Assembly (NCBI GenBank): GCA_019163175.1
Contig: JAFLKN010000003.1
Location: forward strand, 62,001-126,000
Source of the DNA: Prolixibacteraceae bacterium
GTDB lineage: Bacteria; Bacteroidota; Bacteroidia; Bacteroidales; Prolixibacteraceae
Length of the DNA: 64,000 bases
Direction of reading: 5' to 3'
Positions within the stretch are counted from its first letter, which is position 1. Each line of letters starts with the position of its first letter. The notes below the pieces were generated by a model, which saw nothing but the letters and a program-made list of their open reading frames with translations, searched no databases and was not told where the DNA came from. The translations under genes and the position numbers were made by a program. Of this stretch, positions 513-14,026 are shown one piece after another.

Positions 513-809
513 TTATTGATTGCCAATTAGTTCTTCCAATGCCGCCAGATGCTGACGGAACAAACTCTTTCCAAGATCTGTAGCACGGTAGGTAGTGCTG
601 GGTTTCCGCCCAATAAATTGCTTGGAAACCACAATAATCTCTTGCTGTTCCAAAGCTTTCAGGTGACTGGCCAGATTCCCGTCAGTCAACTCAAGTAAGT
701 CTTTCAGAGCATTGAAATCGAGCGTGTCGTTCACCATAAGTGCCGACATGATTCCAAGCCTGATGCGGCTTTCAAATACTTTCTGAAGATTTCCTATCGG
801 GTTCTTCAT
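513..809 (-). CDS. Winged-helix DNA-binding transcriptional regulator
   Basis: This 98-residue protein is a minimal winged-helix domain. Residues about 14-60 give the helix-turn-helix (LKDLLELTDGNLASHLKALE, with the recognition helix at TDGNLASHLKALEQQ). The wing follows, with VVSKQFIGRKPSTTYRATDLG. This arrangement is typical of small ArsR/MarR-like regulators often paired with a membrane protein and creD in Bacteroidota. It has no cysteine metal site and no extra sensor domain. Its start overlaps the stop of the upstream membrane-protein gene by 4 bp (ATGA), so the two are translationally coupled. It probably represses its own operon and creD through the shared palindromes at 1453-1469 and 481-497; the direction of control is inferred. 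Confidence 0.85.
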   Translation of the reverse strand: MKNPIGNLQKVFESRIRLGIMSALMVNDTLDFNALKDLLELTDGNLASHLKALEQQEIIVVSKQFIGRKPSTTYRATDLGKSLFRQHLAALEELIGNQ

Positions 810-1444
810 CGCTCGTATTTATAATACATCACTATTCCATAAATGATGTGCATTAAACCGAATCCTACAGCCCAAAACAGCAGACCATGATTAATGAAAA
901 TTCCGGCCAAAATTCCCAATACGATTTCGGTCAGACCCAAATAATGAATTTCGCCAAAAGTAAATTTACCGGCATTCACCAATGATAAGCCATAAAAAAT
1001 GAGTGTTACCGAAGCCACCAACTCAATATTGTTCCGGAATATCAGAATAGTTGCGAAAATCCCTCCTGAAACCAGAGGAATGAACAAATGCGACAGCAAG
1101 CGTTTGGTCGAACTCGTCCAAAAAGAAAGACCTCCTTTTTTTGCTTTCCTGAAAGAAAAGTAAAAAGCCCCAAAAGATGCAGTAACCAAAATAAGTAACG
1201 CATCAATGGCTAAACGAAATCGGATATCGTTGGTCGGTGAATCGCCCAAGCTACGCAAGTATTCGTCGTATTGCACATGTCCCGAATCCAGAATCAGAAA
1301 ATAAGCAACTGCTGCGCCAATCAAAGCACATACGCCTGCGAAGACGCCCGATAAACCGCTTAATGATAAAAACTTGGAAGATCGTTCCATGATCTCGCGG
1401 ATGGCCTGAAGATCTTCTTTGGGATTGGTCGAATTTGTTTTCAT
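806..1444 (-). CDS. Multi-pass membrane protein of unknown function, co-operonic with the winged-helix regulator
   Basis: The 212-residue protein has an N-terminal amphipathic stretch (about 12-25, LQAIREIMERSSKFLSLSG) and about six hydrophobic segments: 30-52, 80-100, 118-138, 140-160, 165-180 and 185-205. It has no recognisable catalytic motif. Position and 4-bp overlap with the downstream regulator suggest it helps sense the signal or protects the envelope; this is inference only. The promoter at 1464-1493 and a palindromic candidate operator lie immediately upstream, leaving a leader of only about 10 nt. I do not assign a named family. Confidence 0.75.
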   Translation of the reverse strand: MKTNSTNPKEDLQAIREIMERSSKFLSLSGLSGVFAGVCALIGAAVAYFLILDSGHVQYDEYLRSLGDSPTNDIRFRLAIDALLILVTASFGAFYFSFRKAKKGGLSFWTSSTKRLLSHLFIPLVSGGIFATILIFRNNIELVASVTLIFYGLSLVNAGKFTFGEIHYLGLTEIVLGILAGIFINHGLLFWAVGFGLMHIIYGIVMYYKYER

Positions 1445-1452
1445 TTAAAAGT

Positions 1453-1469
1453 ACTTTGAAATACAAAGT
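1453..1469 (-). promoter_or_regulatory. Candidate operator before the membrane protein/regulator operon
   Basis: ACTTTG-AAATA-CAAAGT is a perfect 6-bp-arm inverted repeat, 9 bp from the start codon at 1444. Its left minus-strand arm is part of the -7 element TAACTTTG, so a bound repressor would block RNA polymerase. It is the twin of the site at 481-497. Confidence 0.6.
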
Positions 1470-1493
1470 TAATAATTGAAATTTATAAAACAA
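1464..1493 (-). promoter_or_regulatory. Bacteroidota-type promoter of the regulator operon
   Basis: On the minus strand TTG (1491-1493), a 19-bp spacer and TAACTTTG (1464-1471) match the Bacteroidota primary sigma consensus TTG-N19-21-TAnnTTTG. The -7 element overlaps the palindrome at 1453-1469. Confidence 0.6.
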
Positions 1494-1501
1494 GTGTTGA
1501 C

Positions 1502-1554
1502 AAAAAAAAATTCCGGCTTCACTCCCCTTTTCAGGAAAACGAATACCGGAATTT
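1502..1554 (-). terminator. Rho-independent terminator of the thioredoxin reductase operon
   Basis: The arms AAATTCCGG (1508-1516) and CCGGAATTT (1546-1554) pair perfectly over 9 bp. On the minus strand the hairpin is followed by a run of T (A-run at 1502-1510). It sits 33 bp past the stop of the fusion gene ending at 1588. Confidence 0.75.
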
Positions 1555-1587
1555 CTGAATTTATATTAATCCCTTAAAACTTACAAT

Positions 1588-2856
1588 TTATCCGATTTCG
1601 CGGGTGATTGAGATGGCTGCAATAGTTCCATCGGCAATGGCTGTGGTAATCTGCCTGTACTTTTTGCTGGTCACATCGCCCACGGCAAACACGCCATCAA
1701 TGTTGGTGCGTTTATCCTCATCAGTTTTGATGTAGCCCCACTCATCGAGTTCAAACTGATTGTTGAATATTTCGAGGTTGGGTTTTAGTCCAATAAAAAC
1801 AAAAATACCGTCGGCAGTGATTGTTTTCATCTCTTTGGTTTTCATATCTTCCACTTCAACCACCATTTTATCTCCATCTTTTTTAATCGCACGTGGTTCG
1901 TGCGATAACATGAACGAAACTTTAGGATTCTCAAACGCTTTTTCCTGTGCTGTTTTGTTGGCCTGAAGTTGGTCGAACTGGTGCACGATGGTAATTTTGG
2001 AAGCAAACTTCGAAATGAAATCAGCTTCTTCGATGGCCGAATTTCCTCCGCCCACAACAATCACTTCCTTGTCGCCAAAATATTTGGCATCGCAGGTAGC
2101 GCAATACGAAATTCCTTTGCCGCGGTATTCCACTTCTCCGGGAATGCCCATTTTGTTAGGCGAAGTTCCGGTGGCAACAATAATTCGTTTGGCGCGAATG
2201 GTTTCCTGGTTGTCGATGGTAATTTCCTTTTTCAGAAGATCGATTTTGGTTACGTCAACTGCCACTTTATAGGTTGTTCCGCATTGTTTGGTTTGCTCCG
2301 ACATGTTGTGCCCAAGCAGATATCCGGGCTGCGGATCAATAAATCCGGGATAGTTCGACACCATGTGGGTGGTTGAAACGTATCCACCTGGAAGCGCAAT
2401 GTCGATTAAAACAGTATTTATTTTAGCCTGACACAGGTACAATCCTGCGGTCAATCCGCCCGGACCGGCACCCAAAATAGCCACGTCAACATCCGTTACA
2501 AAAGGTTGCTGCGTTGACATTATATCAGTTACTTTTTCTTTACCGAGAATGTGTTTCAGTTCGCGAACAATTTCGGAGCGCTTAACGCCACCTGCCAAAC
2601 GACCGGAAACTTCTTCACCATCCTGATAAAATAAAAGTGTCGGTGAGCTTTTTACAATTAACTTATCCGACAGTTCGCGGTTTCCCTGACGAAAAATCTT
2701 CACAAATTTAACTTCTTTCCCGAATAGCTTTTCAAGACTTTCCAGTTTCGGTGCAATAGCCTCACATGGAGCACATTCGGTTGAGAAAAAATCAACCAAA
2801 ACATTGCCTCCATTTAATACTTCGGTTTCAAAATCTGATGCATTAATTTCTTTCAT
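1588..2856 (-). CDS. Thioredoxin-thioredoxin reductase fusion protein
   Basis: Residues 1-105 form a thioredoxin domain with an active-site C28-A-P-C31 in place of the usual WCGPC and a cis-Pro loop (SSPT, about 69-72). Residues 122-422 form an NADPH-dependent thioredoxin reductase: FAD-binding GAGPGGL near 130, redox pair C252-A-T-C255-D, NADPH-binding GGGNSAIEEA near 268, and C-terminal GVFAVGDV. The thioredoxin is at the N-terminus, the reverse of the well-known mycobacterial reductase-thioredoxin fusion. The start overlaps the stop of the DUF1847 gene by 4 bp, making this the last gene of the radical SAM operon, before a clear terminator. It would supply electrons to dithiol partners; a target among the Cys-rich neighbours is inferred. 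Confidence 0.93.
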   Translation of the reverse strand: MKEINASDFETEVLNGGNVLVDFFSTECAPCEAIAPKLESLEKLFGKEVKFVKIFRQGNRELSDKLIVKSSPTLLFYQDGEEVSGRLAGGVKRSEIVRELKHILGKEKVTDIMSTQQPFVTDVDVAILGAGPGGLTAGLYLCQAKINTVLIDIALPGGYVSTTHMVSNYPGFIDPQPGYLLGHNMSEQTKQCGTTYKVAVDVTKIDLLKKEITIDNQETIRAKRIIVATGTSPNKMGIPGEVEYRGKGISYCATCDAKYFGDKEVIVVGGGNSAIEEADFISKFASKITIVHQFDQLQANKTAQEKAFENPKVSFMLSHEPRAIKKDGDKMVVEVEDMKTKEMKTITADGIFVFIGLKPNLEIFNNQFELDEWGYIKTDEDKRTNIDGVFAVGDVTSKKYRQITTAIADGTIAAISITREIG

Positions 2857-3410
2857 GGGTGTATGTTTTTTAATTCATTTAAAGGTGCGTGATCATAAAC
2901 GCGGTCTTTCACAACCAGCGTGGTGCAATCTGCTTTCACTTCGCGCTGAAACAAAATATCGTGTCCCAAACAAAGTCCGATCATCACAACCAAATCAACA
3001 TTTTCGTGATTCAATTGTCGCGCCTGCCCAATTGGGTTGCAGGAAACGTTGCATATTGAACTTTCAGGATTTACTTCATTCTGAGGAAGCCCGCCAACGG
3101 TGCACGACACAGGTCGAACATTCAATCCATTACGCCGGATAATTTCAGTAATTTGTTTCACTTGACTTTCCATTCCGTAGCAGTAAGCCAAACCAATTCG
3201 TTTGTACTCCATTTTCTTGGCAAAAGCGATGGTTTCCTGAAGTCTCGACAATGTTCCGGCACGACCAAAATCGACCAATTCCGCTGCAGCCTGAACAATC
3301 TCCGATTCTTCGGCATACTTCTGAATCACCTCATCGTAATCAAACGAAGTTGCTTTACAGGTTGCCGTTTCCCGGCATTGTTTATCGTAAGCGCAATTGG
3401 TGCAGTCCAT
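2853..3410 (-). CDS. DUF1847 family Cys-rich putative metal-binding protein
   Basis: The 185-residue protein opens with a Cys cluster (C3, C6, C12, C18), then a core with YKRIGLAYCYG (about 71-81) and a second cluster in the CNVSCNPIGQA region near residue 120. This pattern matches DUF1847, annotated as a probable metal-binding family of unknown activity. It lies 3 bp after the radical SAM stop and overlaps the thioredoxin-reductase fusion by 4 bp, so all three are almost certainly one transcript. Cys richness beside a thioredoxin system suggests thiol or metal chemistry in the pathway; no enzyme activity can be assigned from sequence. Confidence 0.8.
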   Translation of the reverse strand: MDCTNCAYDKQCRETATCKATSFDYDEVIQKYAEESEIVQAAAELVDFGRAGTLSRLQETIAFAKKMEYKRIGLAYCYGMESQVKQITEIIRRNGLNVRPVSCTVGGLPQNEVNPESSICNVSCNPIGQARQLNHENVDLVVMIGLCLGHDILFQREVKADCTTLVVKDRVYDHAPLNELKNIHP

Positions 3411-3413
3411 CGT

Positions 3414-4715
3414 TTATTCGTTGAAATAATGACCAATACCCAGTTCCAGCAATTCTGTAACAGGGCGGCAATCGTGGCTGTTCAGTGTTCCATTGTAGTT
3501 TTTTGCCATCGATGCACAGCCCCCGCCACAAATCAGGCTCAGGTTGCAACTTTGGCATTTTGGGATCGATAAAATATCGCGTTCCTGCCATTCTTCAACA
3601 GCTTCGGTATTTTTCCTGACTTCAGGATAAAAAGTACCGAGACTTTCGCCGTGCTTTCCGACAGTAGCCGTGCAGGCATATACGTTTCCGGTAAAATCGA
3701 AGGCCCATTCGGTTTTAGTTCCGGTGCAGGCATCAAAAAGAGGTGCGGGCATTTCGCCCTGTTCGAACAAAAATTTCGCCACAGAAAATGCAGGTTTATG
3801 GAATTCGCCGATGTGAGGAAACCGATTCAGCAGATTGTATAAATCCTGATACAATTCGAGTCTTGAATAAAGCTTTTGTTGATTAGCCTGACATTCGTGG
3901 AGTTCGTAATTCCGACCCAATTGGGTTTTGAATAATGGTGAAGCAGTCCAGCCTTTATCGATGGCAAACTGAGCCAGATCCGGCAAATTGTTAATATTTT
4001 GTTTGTCAACTACCATGCGCAAATTGACCGGAAAATTGTTCTCAATTAGAAGATCTACTCCGCGAACAATGCGATCAAAAGTCGGGTTTCCGCCTTTCAG
4101 GTAACGGCGTTGATTATGTGTTTCGCTGGTTCCGTCGAGCGTCACCTGAATTTCGCGAATAATACCTTTCTTTAAAATAGGAATGTATTCTTCCAAATTG
4201 TACCCGTTGGTAACCGTGGCAATTTCGAGATTCAATGCGGTCGCCCGTTCAATAATGTATTCGATGTTTTCCTTGTGGCGCGGGGCATTCATAAATGGTT
4301 CGCCACCAAAAAGGGTGATGTATTTGCGTCTCCCAAAAAACTCTTTCTGGATGTAATCAAAAAACGAGTCTGTAACTTCTTTCGACAAGGCGACTGGTAA
4401 AGCTTCGTAACCTGCCTGATAACAATACGAACAATCGAAATTGCACGAGTAGTTGGTCACAAAAAAGATTTGAACTTCATCCTTCTCACGGTCGTCGAGA
4501 AACTTCAGATACTTTTCGCGGAACAAACGTTTTTCCTGAGCCGGATCGACGATATAGCCATTCTCAATCAGTTCCTGATTTGTTTCGTCAACATTTTGTA
4601 GTTGCCCGAAGGTTTCCTGATCGAGAATATCGGCTTGGCTCGACAATGAATTCACAATGAACCAATTGTCAGAGTCTTTAATCTTTGAAGTAATGTTGTA
4701 TTTGGAGAGTTGCAT
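3414..4715 (-). CDS. Radical SAM/SPASM peptide-maturase-like enzyme
   Basis: The 433-residue enzyme has the radical SAM cluster motif C91-x3-C95-x2-C98 (CNFDCSYCYQ), the GGEP motif (LFGGEPFMN) near residue 137, and a C-terminal SPASM region with Cys at DACTG, YACTA, CQSCNLSLICGGGC and HDCRP. About 80 residues before the barrel (YNITSKIKDSDNWFIVNSLS onward) resemble the small winged leader-binding domain of many RiPP maturases. SPASM enzymes bind extra 4Fe-4S clusters and usually modify Cys, Ser or side-chain carbons of peptides or proteins, as in anaerobic sulfatase maturation and sactipeptides. A 31-codon Cys-Cys peptide gene lies 144 bp upstream on the same strand, the likely substrate; there is no sulfatase nearby. 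Confidence 0.88.
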   Translation of the reverse strand: MQLSKYNITSKIKDSDNWFIVNSLSSQADILDQETFGQLQNVDETNQELIENGYIVDPAQEKRLFREKYLKFLDDREKDEVQIFFVTNYSCNFDCSYCYQAGYEALPVALSKEVTDSFFDYIQKEFFGRRKYITLFGGEPFMNAPRHKENIEYIIERATALNLEIATVTNGYNLEEYIPILKKGIIREIQVTLDGTSETHNQRRYLKGGNPTFDRIVRGVDLLIENNFPVNLRMVVDKQNINNLPDLAQFAIDKGWTASPLFKTQLGRNYELHECQANQQKLYSRLELYQDLYNLLNRFPHIGEFHKPAFSVAKFLFEQGEMPAPLFDACTGTKTEWAFDFTGNVYACTATVGKHGESLGTFYPEVRKNTEAVEEWQERDILSIPKCQSCNLSLICGGGCASMAKNYNGTLNSHDCRPVTELLELGIGHYFNE

Positions 4716-4724
4716 GGAAAAACT

Positions 4725-4850
4725 GATTAGAGATTAACGATTAGAGATTAACGATTAGAGATTAACGATTAGAGATTAACGATTATTGATTTTCAGATAT
4801 CGAAATACTTCTTCAATCATCAATCGTTAATCGTTAATCAGTAATCAACT
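4725..4850. repeat. Four tandem 14-bp repeats plus inverted partner, between peptide gene and radical SAM gene
   Basis: GATTAGAGATTAAC occurs four times back to back at 4725-4738, 4739-4752, 4753-4766 and 4767-4780, followed by degenerate GATTATTGATT. Near 4815-4850 lie inverted relatives (CGTTAATCGTTAATCAGTAATC), so the transcript could fold into a long hairpin just before the radical SAM start at 4715. Such a structure could lower read-through from the peptide gene into the maturase gene, giving more peptide than enzyme; this role is inferred. Confidence 0.7.
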
Positions 4851-4859
4851 TAAAATGCC

Positions 4860-4955
4860 TTAATCGTGGCATCCGGCAATAATCTGTGATTGTTTGGCAC
4901 AGCATTGCGCCTGTTTAATCTGACCCTTGCGGGCTTTTTTTACTAAACTTTTCAT
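4860..4955 (-). CDS. 31-aa Cys-Cys peptide, candidate RiPP precursor
   Basis: Starting at the ATG complementary to 4953-4955 and ending at TAA (4860-4862), this encodes a 31-residue peptide: a basic, Lys/Arg-rich first half (SLVKKARKGQIKQ) and a Cys-bearing second half with adjacent C18-C19 and C29 (QAQCCAKQSQIIAGCHD). It has its own promoter (4991-5020) about 30 nt upstream and lies directly before a radical SAM/SPASM enzyme with a leader-binding-like N-terminus. A charged leader plus a Cys core is what RiPP precursors look like. The alternatives are a small metal-chelating peptide or a chance ORF; the promoter fit and gene order argue against chance. I know no named family with certainty. 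Confidence 0.62.
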   Translation of the reverse strand: MKSLVKKARKGQIKQAQCCAKQSQIIAGCHD

Positions 4956-4990
4956 TCTTGAGAATTTTGTTTTGATTAAACTATAGAGAA

Positions 4991-5020
4991 TAAAAGTACG
5001 TGTTTTGAACTAAAGTTCAA
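4991..5020 (-). promoter_or_regulatory. Promoter of the 31-aa peptide gene with overlapping palindrome
   Basis: On the minus strand TTG (5018-5020), 19 bp, then TACTTTTA (4991-4998) matches seven of eight fixed and variable positions of the TAnnTTTG -7 element with correct spacing. A perfect palindrome, TTGAACT-AA-AGTTCAA (5005-5020), covers the -33 element, a typical repressor position. Confidence 0.6.
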
Positions 5021-5110
5021 TATAAATACTCTCAGACTTTTCAAAAAATATTAACGACTGAATACTCAATATATATATTATCGAGCCAGACTTTAAACTT
5101 GAAACTCATT

Positions 5111-5752
5111 TTAGCAGCAACTAAATTCGTCTTTCTTTGCTGCAATTGTGAAACTTGACACTTCAATTTTACCTTTTGGATAAGGCTGACTTTCTTCCAG
5201 AATTCGGAAATCTTTAAAACCGGTTCGTTTAATAATTTCAACGTATTCGGCTTTGGTAATCGAACCTGCCCAACATTCGGCTACAGCTTCAGGGTCGTTG
5301 GCATATTCTTCAGGAACGGGTTCGCTCGAATAAATGTCGCTAATCACAAACCGACCACCGTTCTTCAGCAAACGGTATATTTCGGCCCATACTTTTGCTT
5401 TGTTTGAAACATGGTTCAGGGTACAGTTCGAAATAATCAGGTTTGCAGTTTCGTCTTCCAAAGGAATCTGCTCTAAATCGGCCTGAATAAATTTTACGTT
5501 TTCAACGCCCATTTTGGCTGCGGTCGCAGTTGCTTTGCGAATCATTTCTTCAGTAACATCAACTCCATATACAAAACCAGTTTCTCCAACTTCTTCGGCC
5601 AGGCGCAAAACATCAGTTCCTCGACCACTTCCCAAATCAATACAAACCTCTCCGGTTTTTGCTTCGCTCTTCTGAGCCGCTCCTCCACATGACAAACAGC
5701 AAGTGTCGTTGGCTAATGCAGAGTATCTTCCAGCTATTTCAATTGTATTCAT
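5111..5752 (-). CDS. ArsM-like SAM-dependent methyltransferase, Cys-rich
   Basis: The start at 5752 is chosen because the promoter at 5774-5804 ends just upstream, excluding the in-frame start at 5794. The 213-residue product has a class I methyltransferase fold: motif I CIDLGSGRGTDVLRLA, acidic loop GVDVTEEMI, and SNCTLNHVSNKAKVWAEI. Motif spacing and the late segment ISDIYSSEPVPEEY...ECWAGSITKAEYVEII resemble arsenite methyltransferases. Cys pairs are prominent: DTCCLSC near residue 18 and a terminal FSCC. ArsM enzymes methylate As(III) on Cys thiolates, but this protein is shorter than usual and no other ars genes are nearby. Its position upstream of the Cys-Cys peptide and radical SAM genes suggests it acts in that pathway, on the peptide or on a bound metalloid; substrate unknown. 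Confidence 0.78.
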   Translation of the reverse strand: MNTIEIAGRYSALANDTCCLSCGGAAQKSEAKTGEVCIDLGSGRGTDVLRLAEEVGETGFVYGVDVTEEMIRKATATAAKMGVENVKFIQADLEQIPLEDETANLIISNCTLNHVSNKAKVWAEIYRLLKNGGRFVISDIYSSEPVPEEYANDPEAVAECWAGSITKAEYVEIIKRTGFKDFRILEESQPYPKGKIEVSSFTIAAKKDEFSCC

Positions 5753-6299: not shown

Positions 6300-6893
6300 A
6301 TGATACATCCCGTCCTTAAGTTTTTGGCAGAACAATTAAATACCTACATCGAAGAGGTTAAAAAACCCGGAGATATACTTGAAGCGCCATACGTTATACT
6401 TCAGAACATTTCCAGACTGGATGAAGATGCTATTAAAAATACCAATAAAGTTTTGATTTCTCTGGTGAATATTTCAGAAGAATCGACCATGAAAAATAAT
6501 CCGGATTATGCTTTGACCAGAAACAATCTGGTCAATTACAACAATCCACCAATCAACCTGAACTTATTTATCATGATTACTTCATTCATGACAAATTATG
6601 AAAATGCGCTCATTTACCTTTCGCATGCCATCACATTCTTTCAGGGCAAATACTCTTTTACGCTAAAAGACAGTACCACTGAAGTGGAGGGTTTGCCTGA
6701 TGATTTTCATATCATCCTCGATCTGTACAACCTTGGTTTTGAACAATTAAACTATGTGTGGAGCACTTTTGGCGGCAAGCAACACCCATTTGTATGTTTT
6801 AAAGTCAGGCTGATTAAGATGGAACGTGAAAGTACACGAGAAATTCATGGAGTGATTAAAGAAGTTCAGATTGATGGTCGAAATAAAAAGTAA
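6300..6893 (+). CDS. eCIS tube/sheath terminator (Afp16/Pvc16-like, DUF4255)
   Basis: The 197-residue protein matches the DUF4255/Pvc16 N-terminal family: an N-terminal helix (PVLKFLAEQLNTYI), a segment with VLISLVNISEES (about 50-61), and a late NYVWSTFGGKQHPFVCFKVR motif. In Afp and PVC this protein caps the distal end of the inner tube and sheath and stops their growth once full length is reached. It is the first gene of the eCIS operon here, as in several Bacteroidota clusters, whereas it comes last in Afp itself. The next gene follows after 29 bp. Confidence 0.85.
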   Translation: MIHPVLKFLAEQLNTYIEEVKKPGDILEAPYVILQNISRLDEDAIKNTNKVLISLVNISEESTMKNNPDYALTRNNLVNYNNPPINLNLFIMITSFMTNYENALIYLSHAITFFQGKYSFTLKDSTTEVEGLPDDFHIILDLYNLGFEQLNYVWSTFGGKQHPFVCFKVRLIKMERESTREIHGVIKEVQIDGRNKK

Positions 6894-6922
6894 GGTATAA
6901 ATCATGTAAATCAAATTATCCA

Positions 6923-8131
6923 ATGAGTCAGAGTCTTCTATATAAAAGTCTTTTTGAGGTAAATATCCTGCACCATTTTTTCCTGAATAAAGGAGAACAG
7001 GAATGGGACAAGATGAGTCAGGAGGATAAAGATAAGATGGAGTCAAACTATGACATTCGGGAGATTTTTGATATAACGCCAACACCGGAAAGCATAAAGT
7101 CATTGAGTTCTCATAGCTGTATTTTCAAAAAAACATCTTCTGGTATTTTGGTGGGCATTAAGGCTAAACCTGATCAGTTAAATCCGGGGAAGTTCAACTC
7201 TTTTGTTCCACTGGCTGATAATCTGACTTTCCGGTTTCTGCTAAGGCTGAAAGATTTGAATTTCATGAATTACACCGCACTACCGCTTAAGGGAAACCAA
7301 GGCAAAATTTTTGTTTTCAGCAACAGCCTCAACAATACTTCAAATAGCTTTCCGGCATTAAGCGCCATTCCTCCGGTTTTCAAATCCGGGAATACTTATA
7401 TGCCTGGCGATATCCTTACTGATGATTCAAATAACCCAACGAAGTTATTTACCGCATTTGTAAAAACCGGCAACAACCCTACCCTATCTGCTGACTGGCA
7501 AACCGAAATTGGAAATATCACTACGCCCCTGAGTTATGTGAATGTGAATGACAGTTTTCCGGTTGCAAACGGATTCTTTACTTATACCATGAAGGTAAAA
7601 GATGCGAAACCAATTGCAACACTGAAGAATTCATCGGGCTTCACAATTCAGCCTAAAATGGAAGTTCTTCCCGGTGACTTTCAAACACTACAGGTCGATC
7701 TGCTGAAATATCCGCAAGGAATCTATTCCATTCATATTGACAGTGATAACCCGACTTATCATGACGATGTTACCTTCTATCTTCTTCAGGGAAGTGAAAT
7801 ACCATTTGCACTAATCGAAATTAAAGTAAAAAGTAATCAGCCAGCATATAATTTGTTTGATCAGGAAGATCTGCTTTCTCCCACCTTTGAAATTCGTTTC
7901 CGAAACCGGAAAACGCACTGGAAGTACATTGGTAAGCTTTTCGATTCTCCTTATGTACTCGAAAATCCACTGCCACTTACTCGTTACGGAAATATCGAGA
8001 TCATGAAACCTCCCGAACCGGAAGATACCAAAACGATTATGCTTCCGAATCCATCAGTTAGCTTAATAAAAGCTGAAGCTTTAATCCATACGGAAGAGAA
8101 AAAATACTATTCAGAAATTCATATTAATTAA
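6923..8131 (+). CDS. eCIS-linked protein of unknown function, 402 aa
   Basis: I do not recognise a named family. The N-terminal 70 residues are helical (MSQSLLYKSLFEVNILHHFF, then EEWDKMSQEDKDKMESNYDIREIFDITPTPES); the rest looks like several beta domains, with PLADNLTFRFLLRLKD near residue 92 and FEIRFRNRKTHWKYIG near 327. There is no signal peptide or membrane segment. Its position between the terminator and the sheath genes, 18 bp before the sheath start, argues for a structural or assembly role, for example a cap-associated protein. The middle region (about 140-200) has carbohydrate-binding-like sequence (YMPGDILTDDSNNPTKLFTA) but this is weak. Confidence 0.6.
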   Translation: MSQSLLYKSLFEVNILHHFFLNKGEQEWDKMSQEDKDKMESNYDIREIFDITPTPESIKSLSSHSCIFKKTSSGILVGIKAKPDQLNPGKFNSFVPLADNLTFRFLLRLKDLNFMNYTALPLKGNQGKIFVFSNSLNNTSNSFPALSAIPPVFKSGNTYMPGDILTDDSNNPTKLFTAFVKTGNNPTLSADWQTEIGNITTPLSYVNVNDSFPVANGFFTYTMKVKDAKPIATLKNSSGFTIQPKMEVLPGDFQTLQVDLLKYPQGIYSIHIDSDNPTYHDDVTFYLLQGSEIPFALIEIKVKSNQPAYNLFDQEDLLSPTFEIRFRNRKTHWKYIGKLFDSPYVLENPLPLTRYGNIEIMKPPEPEDTKTIMLPNPSVSLIKAEALIHTEEKKYYSEIHIN

Positions 8132-8149
8132 TTCTAAACAGGAAATCAC

Positions 8150-10093
8150 ATGGCAACTACTTACAAAACTCCCGGTGTTTTTGTCGAAGAAATTCCCAAA
8201 TTACCACCGTCTGTAGCCCAGGTTGAAACAGCATTACCTGCTTTTGTCGGCTACACAAATAAAGCAGACGAAATCGCTCCCGGCGATTTGATCAACAAGC
8301 CAAAACGAATTGGGTCTTTGGTTGAGTTCGAACAGTTTTATGGCACAGGGCCAACGCCTGAAGTAACAGAGGTAAATATTGACAGCAATAACAATTTTAC
8401 TTCTGCCACGGTAAAAAACACCTTCTTCATGTACGACTCGTTGCGCATGTTTTATGCCAATGGCGGCGGCGATTGTTACATTGTTTCAGTTGGCAAAAGC
8501 GAAAAAGCCACCACAATTTCAAAGGGCAATTTTACCACTGGTATTGAGGAATTGCGTAAAGAAGATGCCCCAACCATCATCTTATTTCCGGACGCAGCAA
8601 CACTAGGAAATGCTGAACTGGCAGAAGTTCAGCAGGCAGCCTTGCTTCAATGTGCCGATTTGGGTGATCGTGTCGGACTTTTTGACGTAAGACAAGACGA
8701 TTCTCTGGGAGCTAATTTCAGGAATAACATTGGCATAAACAACCTGAAATACGGAGCAGTTTATTCGCCCTGGTTAAAGGTAAACCTGCCAAAGGCAATC
8801 AAATACACCGATGTAAAAAGTGTGATAAAGCGTGCAGGTATATCCGTTCCGCTTTCAGGACTTACCGCTGATGCTGAAGTTCAGGGTTTAATCACTGAAT
8901 TGGAGCAAGCCAATGTTGATGTCGCCAATGTGACCGCTAAAACAAAGGTTTTAAGTCCGCCAAATGGTGTTTTATCTGATGGATTTAGTTCGTTGGTTGC
9001 AGCATTTAATGCGCCATTAGGTAATACAAATGCGAATCTTAAAAATATATTCGACTATCTTGCCTCCATAGGCAACCAAATTCAGTTGATGGCAAATGGA
9101 GTTGCTCCAAATGTTCTAACCCATCCTGATTTTCTAGCAGATGTAAAGGCAGGTATTACTTCAAATTTTGATCTGTTGTTTGCAAAAATCAAAGCGCTGA
9201 ATCTTGAAGCCATTGCAGATATTACTGTCGCACTTGCCGGAACTGACTTTACTGCATTAACGGTAGGCAGTTGGCCTCAGACGGTTGCTGCAGTAGCGCC
9301 AGCTGCTCCCGGATCAATCAATGAAGGCAACGATAACAGCAGAAGGATTGCCGCGGTAAATCTGTTACAGCCTATGTTTGATGAATTAAACACGGCCTAC
9401 CTGAATCTGATTGTAAATGCAGGTAATACTTATGTCAAGACACTTGATGCTTCGCTGGCATTGGTATTCCCGGTTTATAAAAATATACTGAACGGGGTAA
9501 GCAGCAGCATGACAGTTATGCCTCCAAGCGGCGCTGTAGCTGGTGTGTATGCACAGGTTGACCGTACCCGTGGTGTTTGGAAAGCTCCGGCCAATGTCAG
9601 TTTAAATAATGTACTGGCACCGGCAACTGTATTTACCGCCACTCAGCTTGATAACCTGAATGTGGATGCTGTTGCAGGAAAATCGGTCAATGCAATTCGC
9701 TATTTCACCGGAAAGGGCACACTTGTATTTGGATCACGGACACTTGCCGGCAATGATAATGAATGGCGGTATGTTCCGGTTCGTCGCTTCTTCAACATGG
9801 TGGAAGAAAGCTGTAAAAAATCTACCGAGCCATTCGTATTCGAACCCAATGACGCCAATACCTGGGTGAAAATTCAGGGAATGATCGAAAACTTCCTCAC
9901 CACTTTATGGAGACAAGGTGCATTGCAAGGTGTTAAACCCGAACATGCATTTTATGTTGCAGTTGGCCTGGGTAAAACAATGACTTCGCTTGATATTCTT
10001 GAAGGAAGACTGATTGTGGAAATAGGTATGGCTGTAGTTCGCCCTGCTGAATTCATCATCTTACGCTTCTCTCATAAACTGGCTGAAAGTTAG
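8150..10093 (+). CDS. eCIS contractile sheath protein (Afp2-4/Pvc2-like)
   Basis: The N-terminus (YKTPGVFVEEIPKLPPSV) and the C-terminal domain ending HAFYVAVGLGKTMT...LIVEIGMAVVRPAEFIILRFSH are the classic tail-sheath signature. Middle motifs include LRMFYANGGGDCYIVSVG near 98 and GVYAQVDRTRGVWKAPAN near 466. The sheath surrounds the tube and contracts to drive it forward. At 647 residues it is longer than most PVC-type sheaths; about residues 215-445 form an Ala-rich helical stretch inserted between conserved blocks, probably a surface domain. Only one sheath gene is present, unlike the three of Afp, so this protein must build the whole sheath. The tube gene follows 63 bp downstream. Confidence 0.95.
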   Translation: MATTYKTPGVFVEEIPKLPPSVAQVETALPAFVGYTNKADEIAPGDLINKPKRIGSLVEFEQFYGTGPTPEVTEVNIDSNNNFTSATVKNTFFMYDSLRMFYANGGGDCYIVSVGKSEKATTISKGNFTTGIEELRKEDAPTIILFPDAATLGNAELAEVQQAALLQCADLGDRVGLFDVRQDDSLGANFRNNIGINNLKYGAVYSPWLKVNLPKAIKYTDVKSVIKRAGISVPLSGLTADAEVQGLITELEQANVDVANVTAKTKVLSPPNGVLSDGFSSLVAAFNAPLGNTNANLKNIFDYLASIGNQIQLMANGVAPNVLTHPDFLADVKAGITSNFDLLFAKIKALNLEAIADITVALAGTDFTALTVGSWPQTVAAVAPAAPGSINEGNDNSRRIAAVNLLQPMFDELNTAYLNLIVNAGNTYVKTLDASLALVFPVYKNILNGVSSSMTVMPPSGAVAGVYAQVDRTRGVWKAPANVSLNNVLAPATVFTATQLDNLNVDAVAGKSVNAIRYFTGKGTLVFGSRTLAGNDNEWRYVPVRRFFNMVEESCKKSTEPFVFEPNDANTWVKIQGMIENFLTTLWRQGALQGVKPEHAFYVAVGLGKTMTSLDILEGRLIVEIGMAVVRPAEFIILRFSHKLAES

Positions 10094-10156
10094 CAGTCCC
10101 GAAATTACAGTAAATGTTTAATTCAAAAACAATTTTCATTCTTAAAATAAAACAAT

Positions 10157-10585
10157 ATGGCAAACTATCCTCTTCCCAAATTTCACTTCCTGGTGCAATG
10201 GGGCGGTGAACGTATCGGGTTTACCGAAGTTACCGGACTCGATATACAGGTAGAAGCAATTGAATACAGAGAGGGCAGCAGCCCCGAGTATTCAAAAATT
10301 AAGATGCCGGGTATGCTTAAATACAGCAATATCACTTTAAAGCGTGGCAGTATGAACAGTGATTCCGACTTCTACAAATGGATCAATACAACCAGCTTGA
10401 ATACAGTTGAACGACGCGACATCATTATCAGTCTGCTAAATGAAACACACGCCCCTGTAATGACATGGAAAGCAAAAAATGCTTTTGCCGTGAAAGTACA
10501 GGCCAGTGATTTGAAAAGCGACGGTAATGAAGTAGCTATCGAAACACTTGAACTGGCGCATGAAGGATTGAATATTTTAAATTAA
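10157..10585 (+). CDS. eCIS inner tube protein (Afp1-like, gp19 family)
   Basis: The 142-residue protein has the tail-tube fold signature: FHFLVQWGGERIGFTEVTGLDIQVEAIEY at the N-terminus and ITLKRG near residue 58, ending ALEVAIETLELAHEGL-like (VAIETLELAHEGLNI). Stacked hexamers of this Hcp/gp19 family form the inner tube. It is followed 58 bp later by a second, divergent tube paralogue, the usual Afp1/Afp5 arrangement in which one builds the main tube and the other starts it at the baseplate. It is the better candidate for the main tube by its canonical motifs. Confidence 0.9.
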   Translation: MANYPLPKFHFLVQWGGERIGFTEVTGLDIQVEAIEYREGSSPEYSKIKMPGMLKYSNITLKRGSMNSDSDFYKWINTTSLNTVERRDIIISLLNETHAPVMTWKAKNAFAVKVQASDLKSDGNEVAIETLELAHEGLNILN

Positions 10586-10643
10586 AAGTATTCTCCTGAA
10601 ATGAGAGTGCTGCAATGATTTGTTCATCGTTTAAGTAAATGAT

Positions 10644-11102
10644 ATGGCTACTCCTGTTGCAGGCGGTTATTACCCGCCGGTTGGATTTCACTTTAAAGTT
10701 GAGTTTGTAAACCTGGGCAATAATAACGATCAGCGTTTCCAAAGTGTTACCGGTTTGAATGTTGAATACGATACCGAATCGTTTAAAGAAGGCGGTGAAA
10801 ATCGTTTTGAGCACAAATTACCGGTACGCACCAAGTACCCTGATTTGTCCCTGAAAAGGGGAATGCTCACCAACTCAGCAGTTATCGACTGGTGTATTGA
10901 CGCTTTGCAAAACCGCAGTTTCCGTCCGGTGCAGGTAAATGTTACGCTTTTAAATGAAAGGCACGACCCCATTACAACTTGGCAATTCTTTAATGTATGG
11001 CCAAAAAAATGGAGTGTCAGCGATTTTAATGCACAGGAAAACTCGGTGGTTATTGAAACACTCGATTTATGCTATAATTATTTTACCATAAACAAAAGTT
11101 AA
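10644..11102 (+). CDS. Second tube protein, likely tube initiator (Afp5-like)
   Basis: The 152-residue gp19-family paralogue has VGFHFKVEFVNLGNNND at the start, VTGLNVEYDTESFKEGG near 35, LSLKRGMLTNSAVIDWC near 69, and VVIETLDLCYNYF at the end. An insertion near residue 20 and a different N-terminus set it apart from the upstream tube gene; in Afp/PVC such a variant forms the tube layer next to the baseplate hub. Its stop overlaps the start of the small Afp6-like gene by one base (TAATG). Confidence 0.85.
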   Translation: MATPVAGGYYPPVGFHFKVEFVNLGNNNDQRFQSVTGLNVEYDTESFKEGGENRFEHKLPVRTKYPDLSLKRGMLTNSAVIDWCIDALQNRSFRPVQVNVTLLNERHDPITTWQFFNVWPKKWSVSDFNAQENSVVIETLDLCYNYFTINKS

Positions 11103-11275
11103 TGCCACTCGAAATTAAAGAATTGCAGATCAGTGTTGTCGTAAATGAACAACAGGCCAAAGATGCAGCGAATGCGGCCCCGGGCAGCCAGGAATCGAAA
11201 GAGGATAAAAAAGCCCTGCTGCAGCAATGTGTTGACGATATCATGGACATTTTAAACAGCAAAAAAGAACGATAA
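11102..11275 (+). CDS. Small eCIS protein (Afp6/Pvc6-like, DUF5908)
   Basis: This 57-residue gene is easily missed. It begins MPLEIKELQISVVV, the signature of the DUF5908 family found in eCIS clusters between the second tube and the LysM protein, and ends with an Asp/Lys-rich helix (CVDDIMDILNSKKER). Its ATG overlaps the upstream stop and its TAA overlaps the next ATG, both as TAATG, so it is translationally coupled on both sides. The function of Afp6 is not settled; a role in baseplate assembly is inferred from its place. Confidence 0.85.
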   Translation: MPLEIKELQISVVVNEQQAKDAANAAPGSQESKEDKKALLQQCVDDIMDILNSKKER

Positions 11276-11970
11276 TGCCAACCGGTGAATTCGAAAAATT
11301 AAAAATCTATGCCTATACCGATCCGGGTTGCGGAGACGATCAACTGGCTGCATTGGATGAGAATCCGATCACAGCAATGATCAATCCGGAGAATTATACC
11401 CTGGAAACAAAAGTGGAATTTAACAACGGGCAGGCTGGTGGGACAAGCGGAAGCCAGCCCCGCTTCGAGAAGAAACCTCCAGGCGAATTGGCATTTGAAT
11501 TTTTGTACGACAACACCGGAATTATTGACGGCAACCCGAGAGAAGATATTTCGGAAGATCTGGCAAAGCTGAACGATTTCCTGATGGGCTACGATGGCGA
11601 TATTCATCAGACCCGGTTTTTCAAATTTGTTTGGGGGACAAGCTTAATGAAAGGCGTTTGCTCGTCGTTAAGCATCACATACAAGCTATTTAATCCCGAC
11701 GGAAAACCAATCCGCGCCATCTGCAAAGTTACCATTCGCGAAGTGGTGGAAGAAGAGGCCAGAGTTTTGGAAGAAAACAATCATTCGCCCGATCTCACCC
11801 ATTTCAGGATTGTAAAAAAAGGAGACACGCTGCCGGCCATGTGTTTCAAAATTTATGGCGACTCCAAATATTACATACAGGTTGCCAAAGTGAATAAGCT
11901 AAATAATTTCAGAAACCTCGCTGTGGGCAATGAAATATTTTTTCCACCATTTGATAAAACGAAGAACTAG
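11275..11970 (+). CDS. eCIS baseplate protein with LysM domain (Afp7/Pvc7-like)
   Basis: The 231-residue protein has an N-terminal CIS-tube-like domain (GEFEKLKIYAYTDPGC; PGELAFEFLYDNTGI near 73) and a C-terminal LysM domain, about 175-228 (HFRIVKKGDTLPAMCFKIYG and NEIFFPPF). In phage and Afp this protein links the tube, hub and wedges; the LysM fold serves binding within the baseplate (as in gp53) rather than cell-wall attachment. Its start overlaps the Afp6-like stop by one base, and its TAG touches the start of the hub gene, with no gap. Confidence 0.88.
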   Translation: MPTGEFEKLKIYAYTDPGCGDDQLAALDENPITAMINPENYTLETKVEFNNGQAGGTSGSQPRFEKKPPGELAFEFLYDNTGIIDGNPREDISEDLAKLNDFLMGYDGDIHQTRFFKFVWGTSLMKGVCSSLSITYKLFNPDGKPIRAICKVTIREVVEEEARVLEENNHSPDLTHFRIVKKGDTLPAMCFKIYGDSKYYIQVAKVNKLNNFRNLAVGNEIFFPPFDKTKN

Positions 11971-13719
11971 ATGCCAAACGAAAGAAACATACCATCCGAT
12001 AAACCGAAGAGTGTAGTTACTCATACGATTATCAGCGGCGGTACGGAAGTTTCCAAGCAGTATCAGCTTTTATCAATCATTGTAAATAAGGAGGTTAACC
12101 GTATTCCGATGGCCACGCTTGTTTATACCGATGGTGAACCCAGCAAACAATCGTTTGAATTGAGTGGTAAAGCTGATTTTGAACCGGGCAAGGAAATCGA
12201 AATAAAAGCTGGCTATAGCAGCGACGAAAAACTCCTGTTCAAAGGCATCGTCATCAAACACAGCATCCGGGTTCGGAATAAAAATTCGGTGCTGATTATC
12301 GAATGCAAAGACAAAGCTGTTAAAATGACCGCCGCGTGCAAAAACAAATACGCGCTTGACACCAAAGACAGCGACATTATTGAAGAGCTCATTGACACCT
12401 ATGGTTTGGAAAAAGATGTGGCAACCACGACCGTAACACACAAACAAATAGTACAATACAATTGCACGGACTGGGATTTTATGCTTTGTCGTGCCGATGT
12501 AAATGGTTTGTTGTGCATTCCCAACGATGGTAAACTTTCGGTCGCTCCTCCTGAATTTGGGGGAGATGCGGCTCTTACCATTCAATACGGAGCCACCGTG
12601 CATAATCTGGATGCAGAAATAGATGCCCGGCTGCAATACAAATCGGTAAAAGGATCAGTTTGGAATTACACCGATCAGGAATTGGTAAAAGACACAGAGG
12701 CCGAAGATCCCGGTGTACCCGATGCAGGCAATTTATCTGCTGATGCTTTGGCAGATGTGATTGGAGAAACAGAATATCGTTTATTCAACAGCGCCAAAAT
12801 TGAAGAACCGGAATTGCAGGCTTGGGTAAATGCAGCGATGATGAAAAACAGGTTGGCCAAAATCCGTGGAAAAGTTACCACTGACGGAACCGCAGACGTT
12901 TTGCCGGGTCAGCTCATTCAGCTAAACGGTGTGGGCGACCGGTTCGAAGGCAAATTATTTGTGACTGGAATCAGGCATCAGATTACCGAAGGGTTGTGGC
13001 AAACCACCTTTCAGTTCGGAATTAATCCCGAATGGTTTGTACAAACCTACAACGTGCAACAACCCTTGGGTGGCGCCATGTTGCCAGCCATACAAGGTCT
13101 GCATATTGGTATTGTTACGCAGTTGGAAAGCGATCCGGATGGCGAAGACCGGATACTGGTAAAAATACCGGTAATCAATAACGAGGAAGATGGCATTTGG
13201 TGCAGGGTTTCAACCTTGGATGCCGGTGAAAAAAGAGGTACTTTTTTCAGGCCTGAAATTTCGGATGAAGTGATTGTCGGTTTTATCAACAACGATCCCC
13301 GGCATGCAGTGGTTCTCGGAATGCTCAACAGCAGTGCAAAACCAGCACCTCTCAAAGCTGCCGATGACAATCACGAAAAAGGTTATGTAAGCCGCAGCGA
13401 AATGAAAATGATCTTTAATGATGACAAGAAAAGCTTCTCGCTGGAAACTCCCGCAGGAAACAAATTCATCATCACCGAAGATGAAAAGAAAATTCATCTT
13501 GAAGATCAGAATGGGAATAAAATAACCATGAACGAAGACGGAATAAAAATAGAAAGCATTAAAGACATTATCCTGAAAGCGGCTAAAGATATCAATGCTG
13601 AAGGGGTAAACATCAACATCAAAGGAAGCGCACAGACCAAAGTAGAAGGAAGTGCCGGTGCCGAAGTTTCGAGTGGCGGAACCACGAATGTAAAAGGTTC
13701 GATAGTAAATATTAATTAA
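11971..13719 (+). CDS. eCIS VgrG-like spike/hub protein (Afp8/Pvc8-like)
   Basis: The 582-residue protein has a gp27-like hub (residues about 1-365, with GCKDKAVKMT-like IECKDKAVKMTAACKNKYA near 110), a gp5-like OB fold (373-460: LHIGIVTQLESDPDGEDRI; RPEISDEVIVGFINNDPRHA) and a C-terminal beta-helix needle of short repeats (477-582: NKFIITEDEKKIHLED, NKITMNEDGIKIESI). Such trimers form the piercing spike. No lysozyme domain is present. It is followed 16 bp later by a PAAR protein that would sharpen the tip. Confidence 0.92.
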   Translation: MPNERNIPSDKPKSVVTHTIISGGTEVSKQYQLLSIIVNKEVNRIPMATLVYTDGEPSKQSFELSGKADFEPGKEIEIKAGYSSDEKLLFKGIVIKHSIRVRNKNSVLIIECKDKAVKMTAACKNKYALDTKDSDIIEELIDTYGLEKDVATTTVTHKQIVQYNCTDWDFMLCRADVNGLLCIPNDGKLSVAPPEFGGDAALTIQYGATVHNLDAEIDARLQYKSVKGSVWNYTDQELVKDTEAEDPGVPDAGNLSADALADVIGETEYRLFNSAKIEEPELQAWVNAAMMKNRLAKIRGKVTTDGTADVLPGQLIQLNGVGDRFEGKLFVTGIRHQITEGLWQTTFQFGINPEWFVQTYNVQQPLGGAMLPAIQGLHIGIVTQLESDPDGEDRILVKIPVINNEEDGIWCRVSTLDAGEKRGTFFRPEISDEVIVGFINNDPRHAVVLGMLNSSAKPAPLKAADDNHEKGYVSRSEMKMIFNDDKKSFSLETPAGNKFIITEDEKKIHLEDQNGNKITMNEDGIKIESIKDIILKAAKDINAEGVNINIKGSAQTKVEGSAGAEVSSGGTTNVKGSIVNIN

Positions 13720-13735
13720 CTAAAAACGAAGAGTT

Positions 13736-14026
13736 ATGCCAATGGCAGCAAGAGTTGGTGACATGCATGTTTGTCCGATGGTTACCGGAGTAGTGCCGCA
13801 TGTGGGCGGTCCGGTGTTGCCACCGGGAACACCAACAGTGATGATTGCCGGAATGCCTGCTGCAAAAGTTGGTGACATGTGCCTTTGTGTTGGACCTCCG
13901 GATTCGATTGCTAAAGGTTCAGGAACAGTTTTTATTGGCGGCGCCCCGGCAGCCAGAATGGGCGACAGCACAGCACACGGCGGAACAATTGTTATGGGTT
14001 GCCCCACCGTAAATATTGGAGGTTGA
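13736..14026 (+). CDS. PAAR-repeat spike-tip protein (Afp10-like)
   Basis: The 96-residue protein is a bare PAAR domain with three repeats built on PAAKVGDM/PAARMGDS-type motifs (RVGDMHVCPM; AAKVGDMCLC; PAARMGDSTAHGG). Such proteins cap the VgrG-like trimer with a sharp cone, often holding a metal through His/Cys residues as seen here (H11, C13 region and C-L-C near 45). No toxin extension is fused, so it is a structural tip and not a cargo carrier. Confidence 0.93.
   Translation: MPMAARVGDMHVCPMVTGVVPHVGGPVLPPGTPTVMIAGMPAAKVGDMCLCVGPPDSIAKGSGTVFIGGAPAARMGDSTAHGGTIVMGCPTVNIGG

Follow-up and report, generated by a model that had tools for sequence, protein, structure and literature searches.

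A conserved 31-codon gene as the candidate precursor of an uncatalogued SCIFF-like RiPP, encoded with a SPASM enzyme, an ArsM-like methyltransferase and a thioredoxin-thioredoxin reductase fusion

Among described RiPP systems, the closest to the locus considered here is that of the SPASM enzyme CteB and its SCIFF peptides. In the parts of PMC8326336 that deal with this enzyme, CteB is described as having an RRE, binding the leader of its substrate as a β-strand, and carrying an auxiliary cluster with an open site for a cysteine of the peptide; the same parts report SCIFF thioethers from Cys32 to Thr37 or Thr34 and take the wide spread of SCIFFs to argue against an antimicrobial role. A related SPASM enzyme, the ranthipeptide maturase PapB, is known for thioethers that join Cys to Asp or Glu (PMC9413430). 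The locus described here lies in a stretch of 64,000 nucleotides from contig JAFLKN010000003.1 of a Prolixibacteraceae bacterium (hereafter the window), and its features are as follows:

1588..2856, minus strand, thioredoxin-thioredoxin reductase (Trx-TrxR) fusion
2853..3410, minus strand, Cys-rich DUF1847 protein, accessory
3414..4715, minus strand, radical SAM/SPASM enzyme of 433 aa, putative maturase
4725..4785, 14-bp perfect tandem repeat GATTAGAGATTAAC in 4.4 copies, within the peptide-enzyme spacer
4860..4955, minus strand, ORF of 31 codons for the predicted precursor peptide, with conservation and purifying selection
Peptide residues 1-7, leader motif MKSLVKK
Peptide residues 8-15, variable linker
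Peptide residues 16-31, core of 16 residues, AQCCAKQSQIIAGCHD
4956..5110, minus strand, methyltransferase-peptide spacer with a promoter-like block, TAC[TC]TTTA
5111..5752, minus strand, ArsM-like SAM methyltransferase of 213 aa

Translation of 4955..4860 (minus strand) yields MKSLVKKARKGQIKQAQCCAKQSQIIAGCHD, with cysteines C18, C19 and C29, just as an earlier note on this DNA had read it from the letters alone; the neighbors named there, i.e. the methyltransferase 5' of the peptide and the SPASM enzyme, the DUF1847 protein and the Trx-TrxR fusion 3' of it, were likewise confirmed. The 64-kb window has a single match to a degenerate pattern for AQCCAK, and 100 shuffles have none, which sets the match above chance. 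The peptide ORF was recovered upstream of the enzyme gene in 29 of the first 30 enzyme loci from related genomes, and by pattern in 76 of the 80 named loci L051-L130, which represent the best 80 of 399 relatives and whose carriers are all titled as MAGs. Three of the four named loci without a pattern match belong to genomes in which the methyltransferase and the peptide sit together elsewhere, either about 10 kb upstream of the enzyme on the same contig (L069) or on contigs other than that of the enzyme (L074 and L089). The fourth, L066, is the same place as L020 (G008/G504, 1-620); here the enzyme is devoid of its first 95 residues and preceded by 555 bases of unrelated sequence, a shortening due to decay or misassembly, and a peptide profile search of the genome gave no match, making it the unexplained negative of this comparison of SPASM loci. 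Two distant enzymes (L136 and L137, 27-29% identity) show no such peptide at their loci in a pattern search.

From 130 partly overlapping loci we obtained 84 distinct peptides, all of which contain the pattern C-C-A-K-x-S-x4-G-C-H-D, preceded by A-Q in 82 and by A-L in two. Their leader follows the consensus MKSL[IV]KK (Leu4 in 79 of 84, Ser3 in 77 of 84), and the linker differs in length between peptides. A looser core pattern, which itself requires CC, K and CH (the profile searches being less restricted), yielded 72 distinct cores, every one of 16 residues, with A16, C18, C19, K21, G28, C29, H30 and D31 invariant; Ser23 is exchanged only for Thr (2/72), and A20 is replaced by S or T in five. 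The codons behind these fixed residues vary synonymously: all four Ala, all four Gly and the four TCN Ser codons occur, the AGY Ser codons being unused, and both codons are used for the invariant Cys, Lys, His and Asp. Over 14 same-genus loci (91 non-independent pairs) mean pN was 0.05 against a mean pS of 0.35, so that the drift which the earlier note had considered as a sign of a spurious ORF does not apply. Judged by this pattern of conservation, the ORF is a conserved gene encoding a peptide. PHROGs contained no match for it. The window core and the conserved core positions are free of Trp, Tyr and Phe, a composition that disfavors aromatic cyclophanes as the product; a Phe occurs at a variable position of the core of L071.

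Divergent spirochaete peptides, e.g. those of L173 and L177, have lost the MKSL leader, so that by their sequences leader recognition is not uniform across the family. Seven spirochaete peptides (L164, L166, L171, L179, L180, L181 and L182) show an extra CC within the linker, and that of L181, AQCCATAQCCAK, has the start of its core partly duplicated. A frame of 243 aa in L162 was considered as a methyltransferase-peptide fusion and rejected, as its upstream part does not read as a methyltransferase. The earlier note had also assigned the peptide gene its own promoter. Of 19 same-genus loci, 18 indeed have the block TAC[TC]TTTA 5' of the peptide gene, alongside other conserved stretches, which is suggestive of a promoter; this block, however, presumably only approximates the Bacteroidetes consensus.

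The adjacent enzyme contains the radical SAM cluster motif CX3CX2C (C91, C95 and C98) and the SPASM cysteines C330, C348, C387, C390, C396, C400 and C416. These ten cluster cysteines are invariant in 86 of 86 enzymes, and an extra cysteine, C275, is found in 85 of them. Position 333 of the SPASM region is Cys in 45 and Thr in 37 of the 86, which we counted against an assured open cluster site. The structure model (pLDDT 91.1) begins with elements in the order b-b-b-a-a-a. By sequence, Foldseek and VIA alike the best match of the enzyme is CteB, to which it aligns from residue 4 with an identity of about 20%; at lower Z, the SPASM/radical SAM enzymes anSME, SuiB and PqqE, which perform other chemistry, share this fold. 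Residues ~1-78 appear RRE-like from their modeled secondary structure and the CteB alignment taken together, in keeping with the leader-binding-like N-terminus that had been suspected earlier. The CX3CX2C motif, the seven-Cys SPASM pattern and the RRE-like N-terminus are together the marks of a peptide maturase.

The peptide and the enzyme also occur together on the scale of genomes, as seen with a peptide profile that was run, independently of the enzyme, on the six frames of whole genomes. In Bacteroidota it matched seven of 395 genomes, six of which are exactly those with an enzyme scoring at least 649 bits; the seventh match (G144) is weak, at 21.3 bits with all partner genes absent, and was rejected as a true peptide, and two genomes with a distant enzyme (G151 and G485, 233-239 bits) gave no peptide match. 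Spirochaetota, to which L102 belongs, were sampled with 247 genomes; 34 of these have the peptide, 34 the enzyme and 33 both (Fisher p ~1e-38, kinship ignored), and the two mismatches are accounted for by contigs that stop 379 bases past the peptide, within the enzyme (G687), or at residue 200 of the enzyme (G565). Homologous SPASM loci free of a conserved Cys-Cys ORF, which the earlier note had named as the observation that would speak against the locus, were looked for in the enzyme loci and in the Bacteroidota and Spirochaetota genomes, and the outcome leaves the locus standing. The peptide was further found in two of 55 genomes of the phylum sample around L120, a MAG titled Fibrobacteres, and in two of 51 around L124, the latter sample apparently consisting once more of Bacteroidota, as one of its matches coincides with G147. 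Carriers are thus found in Spirochaetota, in Bacteroidota, among them an Ignavibacteriales MAG, and in one MAG with the label Fibrobacteres.

To delimit the unit we used 25 wider spirochaete regions, 24 of which were counted after a contig of 3.8 kb (L226) was left out. The methyltransferase, the peptide, the enzyme and the Trx-TrxR fusion are all present in 24 of 24, in the order methyltransferase-peptide-enzyme-TrxR in 15, with TrxR placed first in eight and rearranged in one (L213). The reductase therefore belongs to the unit despite its shifting position, and the unit is one of four genes, namely those for the methyltransferase, the peptide, the SPASM enzyme and the Trx-TrxR fusion. A broader set of 114 loci, some on truncated contigs and at least three of them duplicates of another, gave the enzyme in 112, the methyltransferase in 106, TrxR in 110, DUF6132 in 24 and DUF302 in 19. 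One common layout in Bacteroidota is (DUF6132)-methyltransferase-(lipoprotein-like thioredoxin)-peptide-enzyme-(DUF1847)-TrxR-(DUF302). In the window the unit lies entirely on the minus strand and extends from about 1588 to 5752; the span of 4860-5752 given earlier thus covers the peptide and the methyltransferase but falls short of the functional unit. Likewise, the methyltransferase and the Trx-TrxR fusion, proposed earlier as partners, hold their place, whereas DUF1847 is a frequent accessory and not a core member, with 29 occurrences in the 114 loci and one copy only inside the 24 extended spirochaete loci.

Several further observations concern the surroundings of the unit. Genes of a contractile injection system (Pvc16-like, sheath, three tube proteins, hub/spike and PAAR) lie directly beside it in the window (6300-14026, plus strand), and genes of a similar kind adjoin it in several same-genus loci. 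An HTH_34 regulator and a putative membrane protein of 212 aa (window 513-1444, minus strand) form a pair that recurs downstream of Trx-TrxR in several same-genus loci, often with CreD. In L214 (4497-10020) and L215 (4131-10489) the methyltransferase and the peptide stand apart from the enzyme, and downstream of them are DUF1847, a multihaem cytochrome c, a cytochrome b-like protein (by sight) and Sulf_transp (YeeE-type) proteins, the Pfam labels being from a scan of L215. A PADLOC run on four window proteins gave superfamily-level matches only (viperin, mad2).

Arsenite methyltransferases (PDB 5evj and 4kw7) are homologues of the ArsM-like enzyme, which scores 197.4 bits against NF008823, the cut-off of which is 263. 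It displays an N-terminal CCLSCGGA motif and further cysteines in ISNC and ECWAG; six cysteines are invariant in 75 of 75 sequences, and two cysteines of the enzyme align with GCGS and ECLGGA of 4kw7. A second copy or relative of it is found elsewhere in the locus in L042 (17906-18514), L131 (3124-3750), L075 and L085. The fusion protein combines a thioredoxin domain with the motif CAPC (mostly CPPC in relatives) and a reductase domain with the active site SYCATC. Thioredoxin reductases that use NADPH combine a CxxC active site with the cofactor motif HRRxxxRA; the window fusion has the CATC of the former and, in the place of the latter, HQFDQLQAN. This motif starts with HQF in all 78 pattern-matched sequences (of 85) and in 21 of 22 matched spirochaete reductases, the exception being L213 with HRRDAFRA. 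DUF1847 is commoner in cassette-bearing Spirochaetota (8/35 against 6/212, p 1.2e-4, kinship ignored). Two types of DUF1847 protein occur, told apart by whether they carry a Cys motif at the N-terminus; all 22 aligned sequences share C77, C124, C147 and GLCxGHD, and the structure model (pLDDT 87.7) found weak Foldseek matches only, the best with an E-value of 5.7e-4.

We favor, with reasonable though not strong confidence, the proposal that the ORF encodes the precursor of an uncatalogued SCIFF-like RiPP with the adjacent SPASM enzyme as its dedicated maturase, and that the product is probably a housekeeping thioether peptide. The parts of this proposal differ in strength: that a precursor and a cognate maturase exist is very probable; that the core undergoes thioether chemistry, which is proposed by analogy from the distant resemblance to CteB, is an evenly balanced matter; and that the role is one in housekeeping rather than that of an antibiotic is likely. 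Mechanistically, the N-terminal RRE of the enzyme would hold the MKSL[IV]KK leader as a β-strand, and the basic variable linker would allow the 16-residue core to reach the barrel. With a cysteine thiolate of the core bound at a SPASM auxiliary cluster, the 5'-deoxyadenosyl radical would abstract hydrogen from an acceptor residue, so that one or two thioethers form. The likeliest acceptor for C18 or C19, which precede it by five and four residues, would be Ser23 (replaced by Thr in two cores); for C29 it would be the invariant Asp31, two residues further on. Ser is not known to serve as a ranthipeptide acceptor. The methyltransferase would next act, perhaps on the peptide itself, at a soft thiol or metalloid site, and Trx-TrxR would keep the remaining cysteines reduced or cycle the product.

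Neither the core nor the set of genes changes much from one phylum to another. Those neighbor clusters that were scanned by Pfam, some of them without any Pfam match, contained no ABC exporter, no peptidase (leader peptidases included) and no immunity gene; a TonB-dependent receptor family recurs in five loci. These observations disfavor an antibiotic RiPP and make it probable that the product remains inside the cell and serves in housekeeping, akin to the SCIFFs, whether as a thiol peptide, a redox peptide or a cofactor. The near-fixed 16-residue core in particular suggests a basic physiological role. If this is right, the peptides form a widespread family that annotation may readily overlook owing to their size, and with three proteins and one 31-mer its chemistry is directly testable in vitro. 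More tentatively, the cassette might make a new peptide-derived redox or metalloid cofactor, i.e. a SPASM-crosslinked dithiol peptide that is tailored by the ArsM-descended methyltransferase and recycled by Trx-TrxR. Were this true, the Trx-TrxR would perhaps be of an NADH type, and the cassette would provide certain Bacteroidota and Spirochaetota with a small-thiol system for housekeeping, its standing like that of mycofactocin or PQQ rather than of an antibiotic.

Alternatively, and as an unlikely reading, the mature peptide could be a carrier in sulfane-sulfur or thiol-redox metabolism that shuttles reactive sulfur or electrons between Trx-TrxR and sulfur-handling proteins. The reductase is a core gene of the unit, and in addition to DUF6132 and DUF302 the neighbors of the cassette in the 114 loci include YgaP-like proteins (10), SQR-like oxidoreductases (7, named by sight, the others by Pfam scans), OsmC-like proteins (3 and 4 with two queries), Sulf_transp/YeeE-type proteins (4) and multihaem cytochromes (3). 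However, a single YgaP-like gene is all that these neighbors contribute to the 24 spirochaete loci, and as they are nearly absent there they do not represent the core function. It is rather doubtful that the system is instead centered on a metalloid, with the ArsM-like enzyme binding or methylating As(III) (or Se, Te or Sb), the SPASM-tailored dithiol peptide carrying the metalloid and Trx-TrxR supplying the reductant. This would accord with the homology of the methyltransferase to arsenite methyltransferases and its cysteines aligned with 4kw7, with the L213 locus (G515, 1165-3944), which adjoins an ArsR-ArsM-Acr3-ArsC cluster with a canonical ArsM, and with the greater frequency of Acr3 in cassette-bearing Spirochaetota (23/35 against 78/212, p 0.0016). 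Yet this enrichment is modest, and its statistic ignores kinship and habitat; 12 of the 35 cassette genomes are without an Acr3 match at the threshold used, and the recurrent neighbors in Bacteroidota suggest sulfur and thiols rather than arsenic. An arsenic operon as the general context was rejected, being limited to L213, with Acr3 near the cassette in only two of the 114 loci. Neither the arsenic nor the sulfur theme is core to the cassette.

It is improbable that the peptide is an unmodified small Cys protein, such as a metallothionein-like chaperone, that merely happens to be placed between two enzyme genes: three Cys and one His at a fixed spacing would suit such a protein, but the near-perfect co-occurrence with the SPASM enzyme, the retention of the peptide beside it in differing gene orders, the leader/variable linker/core architecture and the RRE-like domain of the enzyme all speak for a modified precursor. 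A regulatory uORF, i.e. a cysteine attenuator and not a product-forming gene, is scarcely credible and was rejected despite the position of a short Cys-Cys ORF upstream of the enzyme gene, as 11 listed loci have just 2-13 bp between the peptide and the enzyme, too little for an attenuator, the invariant residues include K, S, G, H and D besides Cys with synonymous codons varying, and three genomes have the peptide gene somewhere other than immediately 5' of the enzyme gene.

Returning to the proposed SCIFF-like precursor and its maturase, the locus has the genetic layout of a RiPP, with a short precursor of leader and core encoded beside its own putative modifying enzyme, and its description as uncatalogued is supported. 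Open-licence PMC literature returned no paper for the combination of SPASM, arsenite methyltransferase, RiPP and radical SAM, and none for DUF1847, ArsM/TrxR/SPASM or Spirochaet/SPASM combinations; AQCCAK was absent among the 20 papers listed there of 1,005 with a matching core string, and the lone match to QCCAK among them concerns snake venom. The likeness to selenobiotic peptides that had been suggested earlier goes no further than the pairing of a SPASM enzyme with a peptide rich in cysteines. A read-through pattern applied to all collected loci revealed no stop codon in place of a Cys, and the peptide matches listed from read-through profile searches are likewise free of stops; the 25 listed of 77 NCBIfam matches include no model of a selenobiotic maturase. 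The selenobiotic analogy was rejected, as neither Sec codons nor a matching model turned up in these searches. The neighbors scanned by Pfam included no YcaO-like or azole-forming gene.

The nearest sequence families of the enzyme are the RiPP maturases CefB (NF038107) and TIGR04463, which all 32 members of an enzyme alignment match with E-values of 1e-30 or better; the window enzyme scores 149.3 bits (cut-off 600) and 128 (cut-off 525) respectively, and the peptide differs from CefA, which has a Cys at every fifth residue. The substrates of PapB contain repeated Cys/Asp pairs, whereas the window core has one Cys with an Asp two residues on, and the enzyme reaches 117.1 bits against the PapB model NF047865 (cut-off 340). 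The methyltransferase is an ArsM homologue with two aligned cysteines and other invariant ones besides; it differs from ArsM in scoring under the NF008823 cut-off and in its CCLSCGGA motif, where the ArsM of L213 has GLGCGNP. The pairing of the peptide with such a methyltransferase and a private disulfide reductase is a combination for which the searches of open-licence PMC papers returned no match. Finally, the SCIFFs of Clostridia bear six cysteines in forty-five residues, as against three in the window core (AQCCAKxSx4GCHD), and the enzyme scores 88.4 bits with TIGR03974, the cut-off of which is 425; to the CteB/SCIFF arrangement the window locus adds an ArsM-like methyltransferase and a Trx-TrxR fusion.
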